Assembly (NCBI RefSeq): GCF_900102495.1
Contig: NZ_FMVQ01000017.1
Coordinates: forward strand, 1 to 46,750
DNA length: 46,750 bases
Source of the DNA: Nitrosospira sp. Nl5
GTDB taxonomy: Bacteria; Pseudomonadota; Gammaproteobacteria; Burkholderiales; Nitrosomonadaceae
Reading direction: 5' to 3'
Under the pieces are notes generated by a model. It made no database searches. It was not told where the DNA came from and saw only the letters and a program-made list of their open reading frames with translations. Shown piece after piece: positions 6,176 through 14,417 of this stretch; position 1 is the stretch's first letter, and each line of letters starts with the position of its first letter. The position numbers and the translations under genes are program-made.

Positions 6176-7279
6176 ATGTCCAAACTTATTGATGTTTCCG
6201 AGCTGACGCAACTGCCCACGCAACTGCCGATCGACTGGTATCTCGATCCCTCTATCCTCGATTTGGAAAAACGCCTTTTATTTGACAAGGGGGCAGGTTA
6301 TGTCGGTCACGAAATCATGGTGCCGAATGTAGGTGACTATTATGTGCTGGAGTGGATGAATAATGCCAAAGTGCTAGTACGTAATGAGGACGGCATTGCG
6401 CTGCTGTCCAACGTCTGCCGCCATCGGCAGTCTCTTCTGCTCAAAGGCCGCGGCAATACCAGAAACATCGTTTGTCCCATACATCGCTGGACCTATGGTA
6501 TGAATGGGAGACTACTAGGGGCTCCGCACTTTTCCGAAAATCCTTGCCTTAATCTCGGCAGCACCCCCTTGCAGAATTGGAATGGCTTGCTGTTTGCGGG
6601 CAAGCGGAATGTGGCGCGCGACCTAGCGCACCTTGGCGTCCTTAAAGATTTCGATTTTTCCGGGCATGTGCTGGAACGCGTGCAGATAGAAGAATACGCC
6701 TGCAACTGGAAGACCTTTATCGAGGTATATCTGGAAGACTATCACGTCAATACCTACCATCCTGGCTTAAGTAGTTTCGTTGATACTAACGAGTTGAAGT
6801 GGGAGTTCGGCGATTGGTACAACGCGCAAATTGTGGGACCCAATCGGGACCTTGTCTGTCCCAGCACGCCGGTTTACGCCAAATGGCGCGAACAGTGGCT
6901 GCATCAGACAGAGGGCGAGACACCGACTCATGGCGCGATCTGGATGCTTTACTATCCTAACATCATGTTGGAGTGGTATCCCCATGTACTCGTTATCAGT
7001 ACGCTGTTGCCAACGGGAACGGAGCGCTGCACAAACGTGGTGGAGTTCTATTATCCCGAAGATATTGTGTTATTTGAACGAGAGTTTATTGACGCGGAAC
7101 AGGCTGCCTACCATGAAACTGCAGTCGAAGATGATGAAATTTGTCGGCTTATGACTGCTGGACGCCGTGCACTCTATGAGCAAGGCATTAATGAAGCTGG
7201 TCCGTATCAGTCGCCAATGGAGGACGGTATGGCGCACTTTCATAAATTTCTCCGGCGGGAAATCGAATCGCACATTTGA
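6176..7279 (+). CDS. Rieske [2Fe-2S] ring-hydroxylating oxygenase, alpha-subunit type
   Basis: 367 residues. The N-terminal Rieske domain has Cys81-x-His83 and Cys100-x2-His103 (CRH ... CPIH), which hold the 2Fe-2S cluster. The C-terminal SRPBCC domain has a mononuclear iron site, seen as EDYHVNTYH with His190 and His195 and a nearby acidic residue. Enzymes of this family insert oxygen using electrons from a separate reductase. The substrate cannot be told from the sequence, and no reductase or beta subunit is adjacent. The next gene is a small SpoIIAA-like protein on the same strand 57 bases away. A weak GGGA precedes the ATG. Confidence 0.88.
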   Translation: MSKLIDVSELTQLPTQLPIDWYLDPSILDLEKRLLFDKGAGYVGHEIMVPNVGDYYVLEWMNNAKVLVRNEDGIALLSNVCRHRQSLLLKGRGNTRNIVCPIHRWTYGMNGRLLGAPHFSENPCLNLGSTPLQNWNGLLFAGKRNVARDLAHLGVLKDFDFSGHVLERVQIEEYACNWKTFIEVYLEDYHVNTYHPGLSSFVDTNELKWEFGDWYNAQIVGPNRDLVCPSTPVYAKWREQWLHQTEGETPTHGAIWMLYYPNIMLEWYPHVLVISTLLPTGTERCTNVVEFYYPEDIVLFEREFIDAEQAAYHETAVEDDEICRLMTAGRRALYEQGINEAGPYQSPMEDGMAHFHKFLRREIESHI

Positions 7280-7336
7280 ATGTGGCGTATTGAATTACAC
7301 TACTTATGACAAGTTTTTAATTTATTGGATCAGCCC

Positions 7337-7681
7337 ATGATTACCGTTCAGGAAACCGACAATCTAATCAATGTTGCTGTCTTCGGCGAATTCACCTTGG
7401 CAGATTACAAGGAATTCGAAGAGCATGTACTCTACAAATATCGCTCCGGTAACCGAGTAAATGTACTGTTTGACTGGCGAGACATGCTGAGCTACACCGT
7501 CGATGTTGCATGGGAGGATATAAAATTCATCCGTGAGCACGGCAGCGAATTCAACCGGATTGCCATAGTAACGGAAAATCAATGGCGGGCCTGGGGGGCT
7601 TGGGTTGCCAATCTTTTCATTGATGCCGATATCAGGGTGTTCAGCGATTATACGGACGCAGAGGCGTGGGTTACGGCGTGA
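7337..7681 (+). CDS. SpoIIAA-like (STAS-type) small protein
   Basis: 114 residues from the ATG at 7337; a TTG four codons upstream is possible. The pattern of alternating strands and helices, with GEFTLADYKEFEEHV, LFDWRDM and RIAIVTENQW, fits the SpoIIAA-like family (PF11964), compact STAS-fold proteins of unclear function often encoded beside metabolic enzymes. There is no signal peptide. It follows the Rieske oxygenase on the same strand and is probably cotranscribed. It lacks an obvious phosphorylatable Ser as in true anti-sigma antagonists, so a signalling role is not implied. Confidence 0.8.
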   Translation: MITVQETDNLINVAVFGEFTLADYKEFEEHVLYKYRSGNRVNVLFDWRDMLSYTVDVAWEDIKFIREHGSEFNRIAIVTENQWRAWGAWVANLFIDADIRVFSDYTDAEAWVTA

Positions 7682-8353
7682 TATTCAGGAACTGGGGATT
7701 CTGGAATTTCAGATAAAAAACAGAAGAAGGTGGCAACGGATAGATGTGGGAAAACTCGATCTCCATCTCAAATCATCTCTAACATATGAATATTACGCCT
7801 TCGTAAGGAGTAATCATTTATAATCCGGCTTGGCGTCTTCCACATTCTCAATCTCGGAATAGTCCTCTCCGACCAATTCTGATCGGCGTGATTTCAGGCA
7901 TTACTTAGTTGCCGGCCAGCAGATTTGTTGTAAAAAAGCTACACATCTCTCTCCTATTCTCCAAAATCTCTTTATATTGGTTCTTAACTCGTCCAGAATG
8001 GAACCTGCTTTTCCACAGGCCCTACGTTAAGGTTCAGAATTTATCTCAATGGCATTTTTCAAGCGGAAAACCGAGGCTGAAAATTGGCGCTGTTACTTAG
8101 CTAAAAGAGGCGCGGAATATGAGCATAATATTGTCTTGACAGAGAAATCCACTATAATATAAGCTCGGCAATTGTTTAAATTTACGTATTTATTTTGTTA
8201 GCGAGCACTTTTTATTACAGCGATTATTCTCAGCATTGAATTTAAAAATTTCAAGCCAAGGGTGAGCAGATTAATAACCTAAACAGTGTGTCCGACCAGA
8301 ATCCTTTACATTATAAAAAGATGACTAGTACCATTAATTTGGAGGGGAAGACC
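7682..8353. other. AT-rich intergenic region upstream of the lipid module
   Basis: About 670 bases with no credible coding frame; the two short open frames here (around 7605-7823 and 7909-8100) have biased composition and no ribosome site. The region holds the sigma70-type promoter listed separately and a leader of about 190 bases before the acyl-AMP ligase. I see no classical terminator for the preceding gene. Confidence 0.6.
8136..8163 (+). promoter_or_regulatory. Sigma70-type promoter for the lipid module
   Basis: TTGACA at 8136-8141 is followed after 16 bases by TATAAG at 8158-8163. An overlapping alternative is TTGTCT at 8131-8136 with a perfect TATAAT at 8153-8158, also 16 bases apart. 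Either gives a strong vegetative promoter directed at the acyl-AMP ligase operon, leaving a long leader. Confidence 0.65.
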
Positions 8354-10186
8354 TTGAGTTCAACAATAGCGAAGTTGAACGCTCCGCTAACGCAAGCGTT
8401 TGATCCTCGATCATCAAGCCTGTCGCCGATAACAATAATCCCAACCCCAACACCAACGTACAACACTCAAGCTCAGAGGTTAGCTGATTTTGAAACTTTG
8501 ACTGCTGCCTTGGAGTATGCGGCGGTTGGAAACGCTGGATATAACTTCTATGATGCCAAAGGTAATCTGCGCTCAGTCCTTTCCTATCAAGCGTTAAGGC
8601 AAAATGCTCGCATTTCTGCCGAGCGGTTATCAGGTCTTGGATTGGCCTACGGTGATCGTGTGGCTGTTATTGCTGATACGACCCCGGAATTTGTCGAGCT
8701 GTTTTTTGCATGCCGCTATGCGGGATTAATTCCGTTTGCGATGCCAGTTCCGGTCAACCTTGGCAGTCACGCAATATATGTCCAGCAGCTTCGAGGAATG
8801 CTTGAGGGTGGTCAGGCAAGCGCCGCTTTGGCCAACGTGGATTATATTGGCTTCCTCAGAGAGGCTGCTGAGGGATCGCAAGGATTACGATGGGTGGGCA
8901 CTCCCGAGGAGTTGGGAAAACTCTCTCCCTTAAACATACCGTTGCAGGCAAATCACCCTGACGAAACCGCTTACCTCCAATTTACCTCGGGCAGCACTCG
9001 TACTCCGCGTGGAGTAATCATTACCGAGCGTGCGCTAATGAGCAATCTGCGCGGAATTGTTCGTAACGGGCTGGGCATACGCCCTGGTGACCGTTGCGCA
9101 TCCTGGCTCCCGTTTTATCATGATATGGGACTAGTGGGAATGGTAATGGCGCCGATGGTGGCGCAGGTTTCCGTCGATTACCTGGCGACGCGTGATTTTG
9201 CCATCAGGCCCTTGCAATGGTTGCGGCTAATTAGCCGCAATCGCGCCACCGTGGCATTTAGTCAGCCGTTCGGGCTCAAACTCTGCACCCTGCGGGTTCG
9301 TGATTCGGATCTGGAAGATCTTGATCTGAGTAGTTGGCGTGCTGCCGGTGTCGGTGCGGAAATGATAAGGCCGGAAACATTAAGAAATTTTGCCGAAAAA
9401 TTTGCGCCAGCAGGCTTTGACGCCAAGGCTTTTCTGCCTTGTTACGGATTGGCTGAATCAACGCTCGCTGTTACCTTCTCTCAAATTGGCCAAGGATTTC
9501 AGAGCTTGCGGGTTGATGCGAGCACGCTGGTTGACAGAAAGGTGGCGGTACGATTACAAGCGGAAGGTAGGAAATACAGTGAATTTGTAAACTGCGGCCG
9601 TCCTTTGCCCGAACATACGGTCAAGATTGTCGATGAAAACGGAATGGAATTGCCGGATTTAAGGGTGGGGAGCGTACTCGTGCATGGCAGTAGTATTATG
9701 ACGGGCTACTTTAATAACCCGGAAGATACCCAAAAGACACTTCAACCCGGTAACTGGCTGGATACTGGTGATCTTGGTTTCCTGTTTGAAGGGGATCTGT
9801 ATGTCACTGGCCGCCGTACAGATGTCATTATCGTCAACGGACGCAATATCCGGGCTCAGGATATCGAAGAGCTAGCCGAACAGCAGCCCGAGGTGAGGAC
9901 GCGGGAAGCATCTGCTTTTGGGATAACCGATGCGGGTGATGTGACGACGATCGTGTTGGTCATAGAATGCCGCTTAACCTCGATAACAGATCGGCAATCT
10001 CTTACCGGTCGATTGCAACGCCTGGTCTATATGGCATTTGGTGTTAATTGTTTGGTTGAACTGGTTCCGCCACATACTTTGCCTCGTACGTCGTCCGGCA
10101 AGCTATCGCGTTTTGCCGCACGCCAAGGTTTCATACAGCGGACAACGCTGACAGACCAGCTATCAGCCGAGTCCGGGGACAACTAA
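8354..10186 (+). CDS. Fatty acyl-AMP ligase (acyl-ACP synthetase type)
   Basis: 610 residues from TTG at 8354, chosen because a strong GGAGG (8341-8345) lies 8 bases upstream. GTG at 8288 and ATG at 8321 are in frame but have no ribosome site. It is an ANL-superfamily enzyme: the ATP loop FTSGSTRTPRG is near residue 210, WLPFYHDMGLVG near 251, and TGDLGFL ... GRRTDVIIVNGRNI near 470-490. The YHDMGL motif and long linker resemble FAAL enzymes, which adenylate fatty acids and hand them to an acyl carrier protein rather than to CoA. An ACP is encoded two genes downstream, supporting that role. The Pro/Thr-rich N-terminal stretch may be a flexible linker. Confidence 0.88.
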   Translation: MSSTIAKLNAPLTQAFDPRSSSLSPITIIPTPTPTYNTQAQRLADFETLTAALEYAAVGNAGYNFYDAKGNLRSVLSYQALRQNARISAERLSGLGLAYGDRVAVIADTTPEFVELFFACRYAGLIPFAMPVPVNLGSHAIYVQQLRGMLEGGQASAALANVDYIGFLREAAEGSQGLRWVGTPEELGKLSPLNIPLQANHPDETAYLQFTSGSTRTPRGVIITERALMSNLRGIVRNGLGIRPGDRCASWLPFYHDMGLVGMVMAPMVAQVSVDYLATRDFAIRPLQWLRLISRNRATVAFSQPFGLKLCTLRVRDSDLEDLDLSSWRAAGVGAEMIRPETLRNFAEKFAPAGFDAKAFLPCYGLAESTLAVTFSQIGQGFQSLRVDASTLVDRKVAVRLQAEGRKYSEFVNCGRPLPEHTVKIVDENGMELPDLRVGSVLVHGSSIMTGYFNNPEDTQKTLQPGNWLDTGDLGFLFEGDLYVTGRRTDVIIVNGRNIRAQDIEELAEQQPEVRTREASAFGITDAGDVTTIVLVIECRLTSITDRQSLTGRLQRLVYMAFGVNCLVELVPPHTLPRTSSGKLSRFAARQGFIQRTTLTDQLSAESGDN

Positions 10187-10193
10187 TCAGCTT

Positions 10194-11108
10194 ATGTCGG
10201 GGCCATTGGTGGCGGTAACCGGTGCCACCGGCTTTATTGGCAGTATCCTTTTAAAGTCCCTGATCAAGGAGGGGTGGAAGGTCAGAGCTTTGACCCGGTC
10301 TCCCCGGTCTGACGATGAATTTACGCAATGGATCGAAGGCGATTTAGACAACCTAAGTGCATTGCATAGTCTCGTAGAAGATGTTTCTGCTGTTGTGCAT
10401 TGCGCCGGTCGGGTTCGAGGCAGCTCGCTTGAGGACTTCGTTCATGCCAACGTAGAAGGCACAGCGAACCTTGTGCGTGCTTCGATACAGCAGAGTTCGC
10501 CGCCCCGTTTTCTCCTCATATCTTCCCTGGCTGCCAGACAACCAGAGCTTTCCTGGTATGCAACCAGCAAGCGTATGGCTGAACAGTTAGTGATCGATCA
10601 TTCGCCTATCATGCCGTGTGCGGTTTTCCGCCCGACTGCCGTTTATGGCCCGGGTGACAAAGAAATGAGTCCGCTCTTCAGGATCACCCGGCGTGGCATA
10701 TTGCCGATGGTGGGGCAGCCTGCGATGCGTTTTGGTTTATTACACGTCAGTGATTTGGTTGCCGCCATTCTCAGTTGGCTTTCCACCAAGGTTCCTGTGC
10801 ATGGCGTATATGAGCTTGATGACGGAATGCCCGGTGGGTACGATAGCCAATCCGTAGCCGCCATTGCACAAGATGTCTGGAAGCGGCCAGTATCTTGCAT
10901 TTTCTTACCGACGCCACTCGTTGCGCTGATTGCCAGCATTAATTTGTGGTCTGCCCGGTTGCTACATTATTCACCAATGTTGACTCCTGGGAAAGTCAGG
11001 GAATTACAGCATCCAGACTGGGTATGTGATATCTCTCCTTTAACTCAGGCGCTTCCTGATTGGCGACCTTGCGTCCGCTTGCGTGACGCCCTACCTCTGG
11101 CAATATAA
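10194..11108 (+). CDS. NAD-dependent epimerase/dehydratase, ceramide-reductase-like (extended SDR)
   Basis: 304 residues with an N-terminal Rossmann fold, GATGFIGS at about 9-16, and the catalytic pair Tyr122/Lys126 in SWYATSKR, so it is an extended short-chain dehydrogenase. It starts 7 bases after the acyl-AMP ligase and 33 bases before an ACP gene. In Caulobacter an SDR of this class (CerR) sits with spt, acp and an acyl-ACP synthetase and reduces the keto group in sphingolipid synthesis. The same neighbours here make that role plausible but unproven. A nucleotide-sugar epimerase is the alternative, less likely given the lipid context. Confidence 0.82.
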   Translation: MSGPLVAVTGATGFIGSILLKSLIKEGWKVRALTRSPRSDDEFTQWIEGDLDNLSALHSLVEDVSAVVHCAGRVRGSSLEDFVHANVEGTANLVRASIQQSSPPRFLLISSLAARQPELSWYATSKRMAEQLVIDHSPIMPCAVFRPTAVYGPGDKEMSPLFRITRRGILPMVGQPAMRFGLLHVSDLVAAILSWLSTKVPVHGVYELDDGMPGGYDSQSVAAIAQDVWKRPVSCIFLPTPLVALIASINLWSARLLHYSPMLTPGKVRELQHPDWVCDISPLTQALPDWRPCVRLRDALPLAI

Positions 11109-11141
11109 TTTCTAACAATCGAATCAATTTAGAATTGAGCT

Positions 11142-11393
11142 ATGGCGAGCGATTACACCGATACCCTGCAGAGACTTTGCCATCACCTTAAGCAATTTAC
11201 CGGTCCTGATGTAGAAATTACGCCGCAGACGGATCTCATTAATCAGCTTGCAATTGACTCTGTCAAATTATTGAATTTGATCATGGAAGTTGAGGATGAG
11301 TTTGATATTTCCGTACCGCTTAATGCCCTCGCCGATGTTCAGACTGTCCACGAGCTTGCAAATTTAATCCACCAAATAAAATCTGCGAAATAA
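11142..11393 (+). CDS. Acyl carrier protein
   Basis: 83 residues, acidic and four-helix in pattern. The phosphopantetheine attachment site is Ser40 in the DSVK motif, followed by the conserved helix LLNLIMEVEDEFDI. It is clearly not the housekeeping AcpP, which would carry DSLDTVE and sit beside fabF. It would receive a fatty acid from the upstream acyl-AMP ligase and present it to the alpha-oxoamine synthase that begins at its stop codon. Overlap of one base (TAATG) with the next gene suggests translational coupling. Confidence 0.92.
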   Translation: MASDYTDTLQRLCHHLKQFTGPDVEITPQTDLINQLAIDSVKLLNLIMEVEDEFDISVPLNALADVQTVHELANLIHQIKSAK

Positions 11394-12589
11394 TGAGTTT
11401 GTTAGACAAACTGGATGCTGTTGCTGCGGCGAGAAAGGCGCTCCTGCCCGAGGGCGTCGATGTTTTCGGCATACCGATAGAAGAAGTCTATTCTTCGACA
11501 GAGGCAAAAATTGGCAATCGGCGCATACTGTTTCTGGGTACGAACAATTATCTCGGACTCACCTTCGCGCCGGAATGTCTGCAGGCAGCGCATAAGGCGA
11601 TTGATAGTGAGGGGACCGGCACCACGGGATCACGCATGGCAAATGGCAGTTACCATGGACATCGTGCCCTTGAGCGGGAGTTTGCGGATTTTTACCACTG
11701 TCAATCGTGCATCGTCTTTACAACTGGTTATCAGGCGAATCTCGCTACGATTTCCGGCTTGGCGGGTAGCGGCGACGTTGTCCTGATCGATGGCGACTCT
11801 CACGCAAGCATCTACGATGGATGCCGCTTGAGCGGCGCCGAGATAATCAGGTTTCGGCACAATGATATGACAGACCTGGAGAAGCGTCTCCGCCGCCTTG
11901 GAGAACGCTCACGCTCTACCCTCATCATTATTGAGGGTATTTACAGCATGTTGGGCGATCGAGCGCCGCTGGCTGATATTGTCAAGTTGAAAAATGCGTA
12001 TCACAGCATTCTTCTTCTGGACGAGGCACATTCACTTGGGGTCTTGGGCGAGACGGGCCAAGGTCTGGTCGAAGAAACAGGGCTCATGGATGGAGTTGAC
12101 TTCATTACCGGTACTTTCAGTAAAAGTCTTGGTGGTATTGGCGGCTACTGCGTAAGCAACCACTCGCAACTTGATCAGCTGCGCTATGTCAGCCGCCCGT
12201 ATATCTTCACGGCATCACCCACACCAGCCACCATTGCATCCACGCGGGCGGCACTCAAATTACTCCGTGACGGTACCAAGCTACGTCAACAGCTTTGGAA
12301 AAACGTACACCAACTTTATTCACGGCTCCATGAGCTCGGCTACCAGCTTGGTCCTGAGCCCAGTCCTGTCATCGCAACCATACTTGATACCCCGCAGCAG
12401 GCGCTGACACTATGGAACGGCCTGCTCGAACACGGCATTTATGTCAACTTAATATTACCGCCCGCAGCGCCTGACGGTAAATCGCTGGTGCGGTGCAGCG
12501 TAAGCGCAGTTCATACCAGCGATCAAATGGGCCATGTCGGCCAAGCTTTTGCCGAGTTGCGTGAAGTCATCTTTCCGATAGCATCCTGA
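11393..12589 (+). CDS. PLP-dependent alpha-oxoamine synthase, serine palmitoyltransferase-like
   Basis: 398 residues, the usual length for the family that includes serine palmitoyltransferase, Kbl and BioF. The PLP lysine is Lys244 in GTFSKSLGG, the PLP-binding Asp is in LLDEAHSLG, and the N-terminal block FLGTNNYLGL and GTGTTGSRMANG are typical. These enzymes join an amino acid to an acyl thioester with loss of CO2. Beside an acyl-AMP ligase, ACP and SDR rather than bio or threonine-degradation genes, the best reading is a serine palmitoyltransferase using acyl-ACP. The true amino acid and acyl donors cannot be read from sequence. Its start overlaps the ACP stop. Confidence 0.87.
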   Translation: MSLLDKLDAVAAARKALLPEGVDVFGIPIEEVYSSTEAKIGNRRILFLGTNNYLGLTFAPECLQAAHKAIDSEGTGTTGSRMANGSYHGHRALEREFADFYHCQSCIVFTTGYQANLATISGLAGSGDVVLIDGDSHASIYDGCRLSGAEIIRFRHNDMTDLEKRLRRLGERSRSTLIIIEGIYSMLGDRAPLADIVKLKNAYHSILLLDEAHSLGVLGETGQGLVEETGLMDGVDFITGTFSKSLGGIGGYCVSNHSQLDQLRYVSRPYIFTASPTPATIASTRAALKLLRDGTKLRQQLWKNVHQLYSRLHELGYQLGPEPSPVIATILDTPQQALTLWNGLLEHGIYVNLILPPAAPDGKSLVRCSVSAVHTSDQMGHVGQAFAELREVIFPIAS

Positions 12590-12668
12590 AAAGCACTTTG
12601 CTTTTTCCAAACTATATCAATCTGTGAACTCAACGCATAAAATAACTAGTAAATTCATGTGAAACGGC

Positions 12669-14417
12669 ATGCGTACTCTTTTTACCTATAGTATGGTTTT
12701 CCCCCGGCGCAGCGCATTCGTGCTCGTGGCGCTGTTGGCAGCGGGTGTTGCCGAGGGGCTCAGTCTGACTGCTCTCCTCCCCTTGCTTTCAACTGCCATA
12801 GGCGATACAAGGGACTCGGATATTGGAAGATTTATCGTACAGGCTCTGCAAGGGATAGGGGTTGAACCGACAATCGGGGTCATGTTATTGATTATCGTTG
12901 GCGGTATGGTAATCAAAAGCCTGATATTGCTGCTCGCCAACCGGCAGGTTGGCTATACTGTAGCGCATGTGGCGACCACGCTGCGCCTGGAACTCATCAA
13001 GGCACTACTCGCCAGCCGCTGGCAATATTATCTCCGTCAACCGATAGGCTCGCTTGCCAATTCAGTGGCCACGGAAGCATATCGGGCAGCGAACGGCTTC
13101 GAGCATAGTGCCAATGTCCTCGCGCTGTCAGTACAGGTGATGGTTTATACTATTGTCGCCTTATTCATTTCATGGCAGGCGGCTCTTACTTCTCTTCTTA
13201 TCGGCATGCTTCTGCTGTTCGCGCTGCACCGGCTGGTACGCGCCACACGGCGGGCCGGCGCAAAGCAGACACGCCTGCTGCGTCATTTATTGACTTATCT
13301 TTCCGATGTCCTGAGTTCGGTAAAATCACTAAAGGCCATGGCGCGGGATAATGTGGCCGATGCTATTCTCCGTGATCAGACTCAGCAATTGGAGAAGGCC
13401 ACGCGGCGCGAAGTCATGAGCAGGGAAGCGTTATTGGCCCTGCAGGAACCTATACTTGCCGCCTTGACAGCAAGCGGTCTATACCTGGCGCTTGTGATAT
13501 GGGAGCTTTCATTACCCGAGGTAATGGTGTTGGCCTTCCTGCTGACCCGTATCCTGGGCTTACTCAATAAAACACAACGGCGTTATCAGCAACTTACAGC
13601 GCAGGAAAGTGCTTATTGGTCAATGCGAGCAGCGACTGAAGAAGCGCAGGCCGCGGCTGAGAGAACGGCAGGTACGCTGCATCCTACGTTACTGCAAGGG
13701 ATCAGTCTTAAGCACATAAGTTTCGATTACGGCATGAAACCGATTTTTCGTGACCTGAACATCGAAATATCCGTGAAATCGTTTACGGCCATTACGGGAA
13801 TGTCGGGTGTTGGCAAAAGTACTTTGCTTGATCTACTCTGCGGACTGGCTGAACCTAAGTCAGGTGAAATTCTCGTCGACGGCGTAGCTCTGCGCGAAAT
13901 TAATCTCCGCCTCTGGCGATATATGATAGGTTACGTGTCTCAGGAAACTATTTTGCTCCATGACACGGTTCTCAACAATATTCTCGTCGGGGCGCCAGAC
14001 TTGGTTTATGCGGACGCGGAGCGGGCTTTGCGCCAAGCTGGAGCCTGGGACTTCGTAAACGCTCTTCCGGAAGGCTTGCAGACAATCGTTGGCGAACGCG
14101 GCGGGCTCCTCTCGGGTGGACAACGTCAGCGTATAGCAATCGCCAGGGCTCTCGCCCACCAACCGCTTTTCCTGCTTCTGGACGAACCAACCAGCGCCCT
14201 GGATCCCGATAGTGAACAGTTGATTTGTGAGACGTTGCAGAGGCTAGCGCAAGATTTTACTATCATCGCTGTATCTCATCAGCCCGCAGTAATCAATTCA
14301 GCCAGCAATGTATTTGCTCTCTCAAAGGGCACGGCGGAGCGACTGCAACGGTCTCCCCATAACAGCATCAATTCGGAATCGCTGGTAATTCTGAATATTG
14401 CTGCCGATAACACTTAA
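12669..14417 (+). CDS. ABC transporter, fused membrane and ATPase domains (MsbA-type exporter)
   Basis: 582 residues. Membrane segments lie in about residues 15-305 and the nucleotide-binding domain in about 345-575, with Walker A GMSGVGKST (from 377), signature LSGGQRQR (481-488) and Walker B LFLLLDEPTSALD near 505. The half-transporter architecture acts as a homodimer and exports lipids or other amphipathic molecules across the inner membrane. It follows the alpha-oxoamine synthase by 79 bases on the same strand, so the likely cargo is the lipid made by the upstream genes. A polysaccharide or peptide cargo is possible. The C-terminus is rather Ser/Asn rich and ends without a recognisable domain. 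Confidence 0.88.
   Translation: MRTLFTYSMVFPRRSAFVLVALLAAGVAEGLSLTALLPLLSTAIGDTRDSDIGRFIVQALQGIGVEPTIGVMLLIIVGGMVIKSLILLLANRQVGYTVAHVATTLRLELIKALLASRWQYYLRQPIGSLANSVATEAYRAANGFEHSANVLALSVQVMVYTIVALFISWQAALTSLLIGMLLLFALHRLVRATRRAGAKQTRLLRHLLTYLSDVLSSVKSLKAMARDNVADAILRDQTQQLEKATRREVMSREALLALQEPILAALTASGLYLALVIWELSLPEVMVLAFLLTRILGLLNKTQRRYQQLTAQESAYWSMRAATEEAQAAAERTAGTLHPTLLQGISLKHISFDYGMKPIFRDLNIEISVKSFTAITGMSGVGKSTLLDLLCGLAEPKSGEILVDGVALREINLRLWRYMIGYVSQETILLHDTVLNNILVGAPDLVYADAERALRQAGAWDFVNALPEGLQTIVGERGGLLSGGQRQRIAIARALAHQPLFLLLDEPTSALDPDSEQLICETLQRLAQDFTIIAVSHQPAVINSASNVFALSKGTAERLQRSPHNSINSESLVILNIAADNT

Follow-up and report, generated by a model that had tools for sequence, protein, structure and literature searches.

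What might move a ceramide lipid across the inner membrane of the bacteria that make it is the question raised by a stretch of 46,750 nucleotides from Nitrosospira sp. Nl5 (assembly GCF_900102495.1, contig NZ_FMVQ01000017.1, positions 1 to 46,750; hereafter the window), in which four genes of sphingolipid synthesis, aasR, cerR, acpR and spt, are followed by a gene for a fused ATP-binding cassette (ABC) exporter. According to its source record, the host (genome G000) belongs to the family Nitrosomonadaceae, order Burkholderiales, class Gammaproteobacteria and phylum Pseudomonadota, and these ranks are meant wherever the family, order, class or phylum is mentioned below. The four-gene operon is ordinary for the host family and has already been described in kind. 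The new part is the exporter, which marks sphingolipid makers in a well-supported association, and which we propose as a good candidate for the inner-membrane sphingolipid flippase. That it acts in the sphingolipid pathway appears probable, and the joint reading of a sphingolipid operon with a pathway-linked exporter is only marginally less so.

The identity of the pathway depends on the synthase. The spt product (11393-12589; all five genes lie on the forward strand) scores 594.9 bits against the curated serine palmitoyltransferase (SPT) model NF047599 of NCBIfam, over its cutoff of 500. Its top solved-structure matches are bacterial SPTs (2x8u, E 1e-121), with Kbl-type enzymes reaching 4e-67 at best and BioF also behind. 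The lysine that binds pyridoxal phosphate, Lys244, lies within FSKSLGG; both this residue and the DSVK site of the acyl carrier protein, named in an earlier note on this DNA, were read in the translations. That note had also suggested placing the synthase in a tree together with Spt, Kbl and BioF, and in such a tree of 34 rows the host synthase falls on the side of 29 SPTs, set apart from 5 other alpha-oxoamine synthases by one branch with support of 100/99. The outgroup branches are long, and therefore only this split of the tree is used; 5 rows of the assembled set were left out, and the set lacks many of the spt genomes of the phylum sample introduced below. Three of the five outgroup rows are named over an NCBIfam cutoff (BioF of the host on contig C31, BioF of G754 and glycine C-acetyltransferase of G755); the two others, from G444 and G473, score best on the bioF model, yet under its cutoff. 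A BioF or Kbl paralogue making some other amino-ketone would share the fold family of these enzymes, and the host synthase does give lower-scoring matches to the bioF (332.8 bits, cutoff 426) and glycine C-acetyltransferase (320.9 bits, cutoff 460) models. However, it passes the SPT cutoff and groups with the SPTs in the tree, and the host has a separate BioF on C31 (460.6 bits, cutoff 426); this identity was rejected, and we consider it scarcely conceivable. Since the SPT model is passed, the tree splits as described and the gene order is shared with published cases, the earlier suggestion of sphingolipid-type synthesis is supported, and we regard aasR-cerR-acpR-spt as a sphingolipid operon with near certainty.

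The rhodobacterial operon aasR-epi(cerR)-acpR-spt, known from Nitrosomonas eutropha (Neut_0458-0461, with the acyltransferase apart at Neut_1100; PMC9386255), Escherichia coli BL21(DE3) (ECD_02851-02854) and Caulobacter (CC_1165-1162), has in common with the host its four genes, their order and a separate ceramide synthase unit. In Caulobacter, AasR loads AcpR, which is the preferred SPT substrate (PMC9386255), and at least 13 of the 17 genes of the Caulobacter cluster have good orthologues in N. eutropha, spread over three regions, the ceramide synthase gene always being found in a separate operon (PMC11324152). The host proteins are 48% (AasR), 45% (CerR, over 297 residues), 51% (AcpR, over 49 residues only) and 54% (Spt) identical to those of BL21, where the four genes stand in the same order; a blastn search of E. 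coli genomes with spt gave no match. Within the family, spt occurs in 37 of 37 genomes (against 0 of the 24 examined from the rest of the order), and the order aasR-cerR-acpR-spt is kept in all 36 relatives fetched. Because it is kept both there and in BL21(DE3), the arrangement is not a matter of chance. A literature search on sphingolipids in ammonia oxidisers found nothing relevant. The host operon differs from the published one in the ABC exporter gene after spt, no such gene being named in the available part of PMC9386255.

The earlier note had seen no ceramide synthase in the window, and had allowed for a product finished elsewhere or for a simpler amino-lipid. The genome search that it suggested gave a homologue on contig C10 (G000:C10:28368-29480), 52% identical to YghO of E. 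coli BL21, and homologues of YghO (E 1e-10 or better) were found in 37/37 family genomes and 0/24 others of the order. Because of the homologue on C10, the first of the two options is favoured over the second, a full ceramide being the product expected from these genes. The ceramide synthase gene is followed by genes for a MobA-like nucleotidyltransferase, LptF, LptG, a CDP-alcohol transferase, a DAGK-type lipid kinase and a 366-residue protein. Those of headgroup type resemble, by domain kind and position only, the ceramide phosphoglycerate genes of Caulobacter, where the ceramide kinase CpgB contains a DAG-kinase domain (PMC10331486) and CpgD is a nucleotidyltransferase (PMC12275187).

The exporter is tied to this pathway by its distribution. 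In a class sample of 369 genomes, in which, as in the phylum sample, the best three exporter candidates were scored per genome, it was present (E 1e-90) in 17 of the 21 genomes with spt (E 1e-100) and in none of the 348 without (Fisher P 7e-26, with genomes treated as independent, which they are not). Genomes with both genes span 10 families, and those with spt and no exporter are G216, G327, G392 and G262. A phylum sample of 349 genomes, some of them shared with the class sample, contained 28 genomes with spt and 9 with the exporter (E 1e-80); the two genes were found together in 7 (Fisher P 3e-7, under the same treatment of genomes that are not independent). The reverse search, an exporter-only scan of genome contigs with generic ABC motifs, yielded two clear orthologues among 80 loci, and spt was present in both genomes: a Halieaceae metagenome-assembled genome (MAG) carries LptF-LptG-exporter-acpR-spt on one contig (L197), and a Nitrospirales MAG has spt, at 61% identity, elsewhere in the genome than its exporter locus (L198). 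Three further loci (L230, L242, L273), with synthase matches of 29-33% near an unrelated ABC gene, were not counted.

Gene neighbourhoods outside the family point the same way. Of 19 such genomes with both genes, 11 have exporter and spt in one locus of at most 20 kb, and 11/19 within 10 kb would have a probability of about 1e-19 if the exporter were placed at random in a 2.9 Mb genome. The arrangements vary: the exporter stands directly after spt in G307, G194 and G324, directly after LptF-LptG in G140, G265, G396 and G187, between a lipid kinase and the ceramide synthase in G180, directly before aasR in G508, and within about 10 kb of spt in G339 and G433. The neighbourhood of spt was retrieved in 11 of the 28 genomes that carry this gene in the phylum sample. 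In G140, two opposite-strand Mito_fiss_Elm1 (PF06258) genes (L151 5026-6138 and 10199-11386) flank LptF-LptG-exporter, just before acpR-spt. The idea of lipid export put forward in the earlier note thus gains support from the finding that exporter and spt occur together in 10 class families, with linkage of the exporter to LptF/LptG in several.

Several observations weigh against a role of the exporter in this pathway. The exporter directly follows spt in only 11/36 family relatives, and in the other family loci read it lies among unrelated genes, away from spt. Outside the family there is no linkage in 8/19 genomes (G073, G104, G245, G210, G322, G402, G720 and G515; the spt contig of G402 ends nearby). 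The exporter (E 1e-80) is missing from 21/28 spt genomes of the phylum sample, while G444 and G473 carry it (E 1e-130 or better) and give no strict spt hit (best synthase matches 33-34% identical). Exporter calls in G104, G245 and G515 (33-37% identity) were made by E-value alone, outside the tree, and the class figure drops to 15/21 without G104 and G245. Finally, related ABC exporters carry many kinds of substrate. In G473 (L176) and G444 (L177), which belong to one family, the exporter adjoins apparent cytochrome genes.

The exporter itself (12669-14417) is a fusion of a transmembrane domain and a nucleotide-binding domain (ABC_membrane and ABC_tran) with a Walker A motif, GMSGVGKST, and an LSGGQ signature. 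Against curated models it stays far under every cutoff (HepA NF045513, 278.6 bits of 725; MsbA TIGR02203, 233.6 of 602; PglK NF050066, 191.4 of 1000), HepA being the best curated name, whereas profile matches are to PglK (E 2e-88), MsbA (about 4e-79) and P-glycoprotein-type chains. It thus belongs to the same superfamily as these transporters of lipid-linked oligosaccharide (PglK), lipid A (MsbA) and heterocyst polysaccharide (HepA). The earlier description as an MsbA-type exporter stands at that level and fails for MsbA proper, an identity that was rejected, another host protein passing the MsbA cutoff. Exporter rows split with full support from four other host ABC exporters in a tree in which long branches are flagged, and pairwise scores among exporter rows, second copies included, are at least 309 bits, against at most 141 for the other host ABC exporters. 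Seven near-identical family rows and one duplicate were left out of this tree, and G104, G245 and G515 were never in the set. An AlphaFold model of the exporter reached a pLDDT of 75 and a pTM of 0.66 (11 rows). The exporter is found somewhere in 36/37 family genomes, the exception (G028) being 87% complete. G021 has two copies (C1:211498-213183, L100; C1:364501-366246, L085), only one of which adjoins spt, and the exporter tree puts them on separate branches.

In other bacteria a different protein may take this step. CC_1166 of Caulobacter, absent from N. eutropha, has been called a 'potential flippase' (PMC11324152). In G667, where the gene order around aasR is as given for Caulobacter, a Polysacc_synt (Wzx-like) gene stands directly before aasR, and its product is homologous to a protein of the BL21 cluster (E 1e-58); CC_1166 would occupy the same slot, and it is from this gene order and homology in G667 that we infer its Wzx-like nature. 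Among 80 genomes surveyed at a threshold of E 1e-15 (46 with spt, 32 without, and two with the exporter only), 9 have a Wzx-like protein, all of them with spt and none with the exporter. The 46 spt genomes divide into 21 with the exporter, 9 with the Wzx-like protein and none with both, an absence of overlap with a probability of about 0.002 if genomes were independent. Against the proposed role of the exporter, 16 of the 46 have neither. The weaker Wzx-like matches (E 1e-36 to 1e-45) could represent polysaccharide flippases of a general kind. The host genome gave no Wzx-like match at this threshold, and the window exporter is of the ABC and not of the Polysacc_synt type. G262, of the host class, has a Wzx-like gene just past its LptG. 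The two proteins have unrelated folds and never occur together in the spt genomes surveyed, yet the same step, inner-membrane flipping, is proposed for both, and in one pair they share the slot before aasR: G667 has the Wzx-like gene there and G508 the exporter, and the SPTs of these two genomes are neighbours in the tree (support 99/96). We lean, by a modest degree, towards a joint reading in which this unnamed fused-ABC family is the inner-membrane sphingolipid flippase of many spt bacteria of the class and some beyond. On that reading it takes over the step assigned to the Wzx-like candidate in E. coli B and Caulobacter-like bacteria, and in at least one case its gene position as well.

A probable route can be drawn from these genes, all enzymatic steps being assigned by homology. 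AasR would load a free fatty acid onto AcpR, 3-oxosphinganine would arise from the condensation of L-serine and acyl-AcpR by Spt, the C10 ceramide synthase would add the amide acyl chain and CerR would reduce the ketone, the order of the last two reactions being disputed in the literature. The lipid kinase, CDP-alcohol transferase and nucleotidyltransferase of C10 may add a phosphoglycerate-type headgroup. On the simplest view, the lipid, made at the inner face, would be flipped across the inner membrane by the ABC exporter, a role that we infer from genomic association alone, with oxidised ceramide, ceramide or ceramide phosphoglycerate as its cargo. LptF and LptG encoded beside the ceramide synthase could then pass it on towards the outer membrane; the route of sphingolipids to the outer membrane is described as not known (PMC11324152). 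CerR has been placed in the periplasm by Uchendu et al. (PMC11087976), and flipping would therefore precede reduction; in the host protein, the Rossmann motif begins at residue 9 and no signal sequence was discerned by eye. The site of flipping bears on the dispute over cytoplasmic versus periplasmic ceramide reduction (PMC11087976), and with a pathway-linked ABC exporter the inner-membrane step gains a candidate that can be tested directly. If this proposal is true, a single lipid pathway relies on flippases that are unrelated from one bacterium to another.

The exporter of the window is followed by an exosortase-B exopolysaccharide cluster (15566-40174) encoding EpsA, a WcaJ-type transferase, EpsL, EpsD, EpsE, EpsF, EpsG, XrtB and EpsI. 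Two FxDxF PEP-CTERM proteins are encoded further along. The earlier note placed the lipid genes beside this cluster, and a conserved tie between the two was considered and rejected: none of the 30 relatives whose locus extends 5 kb or more past spt has the cluster there (6 shorter loci were not counted). In G018 and G014, an EpsA regulator gene lies reversed, about 11-12 kb away on the other side.

This neighbourhood nevertheless bears on the most serious alternative, namely that the sphingolipid operon is as described and the exporter handles a different component of the envelope (O-antigen, capsule, exopolysaccharide or a HepA-like product), tracking spt through a shared kind of envelope. 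Such a role would suit HepA as the best curated name, the exopolysaccharide cluster after the exporter in the window, the presence of the exporter without spt in G444 and G473, and the methyltransferase- and glycosyltransferase-like genes near it in several family genomes, with glycosyltransferase-like neighbours also at L198 (both judged by eye from the starts of sequences). Polysaccharide genes are common in bacteria, yet the exporter is absent from all 348 spt-less class genomes; it is linked to spt, LptF/LptG, aasR or the ceramide synthase in 11/19 genomes, and the exopolysaccharide cluster is not beside its locus in any of the 30 testable relatives. We therefore hold this alternative to be considerably less likely than a role in the sphingolipid pathway, though still worth serious attention. 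A generic exporter, carried along with the known operon by shared ancestry or joint transfer and having no direct role, would explain why it occurs in 36/37 family genomes whether linked or not, like any family gene, and why the published operon has no such gene. However, hitchhiking of this sort is hard to accept given the co-occurrence in 10 families of the class, the differing local arrangements and the Nitrospirales MAG with both genes, and it appears improbable. No literature report of the exporter was found, which is a weak negative, as supplementary tables, subscription papers and most preprints were outside the search.

As for the layout of the operon, the open reading frame (ORF) list of the window contains the five frames in the order given, with 7 bases between aasR and cerR, 33 between cerR and acpR, a 1-base overlap (TAATG) of acpR and spt, and 79 bases between spt and the exporter, so that the spacing reported earlier is borne out. 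The aasR product (8354-10186), a fatty acyl-AMP ligase (NF006624, 858 bits, cutoff 600) whose top solved-structure match is the fatty acyl-adenylate ligase 3pbk, is by homology a putative specialised acyl-ACP (acyl carrier protein) synthetase. Its ORF opens at GTG 8288, and TTG 8354, where the earlier note began the gene, is a plausible start because a candidate ribosome-binding site, GGAGGGG (8341-8347, forward strand), read directly, precedes it. The cerR product (10194-11108) is an extended short-chain dehydrogenase/reductase with an Epimerase domain and the motifs TGATGFIG and YATSK; it matches NDUFA9-type chains and is by homology a probable keto-sphinganine/ceramide reductase. The acpR product (11142-11393) has a PP-binding domain, with DSVK from residue 39. 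A scan for promoters and terminators gave 14 promoter-like and 9 terminator-like sites, where shuffled sequences gave 8.4 +/- 2.6 and 7.9 +/- 3.0, respectively.

On contig C10, the LptF/LptG pair beside the ceramide synthase (G000:C10:30441-32554; L093 11932-14063) is the only one found by a PF03739 search of this 99%-complete genome, and it is closer to the pair of the BL21 sphingolipid cluster than to the canonical E. coli pair; it may be that the assembly lacks a pair of the lipopolysaccharide type, or that both lipids share a single system. A GtrA and PMT_2 glycosyltransferase unit adjoins the headgroup genes on the opposite strand (L093 17589-19523). Upstream of aasR, the window encodes a Rieske oxygenase and a SpoIIAA-like protein (6176-7681). 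The Rieske gene is at that place in 28/35 testable relatives and in 0/5 Nitrosomonas-like (g3) loci, and its product is a conceivable candidate for a lipid hydroxylase.

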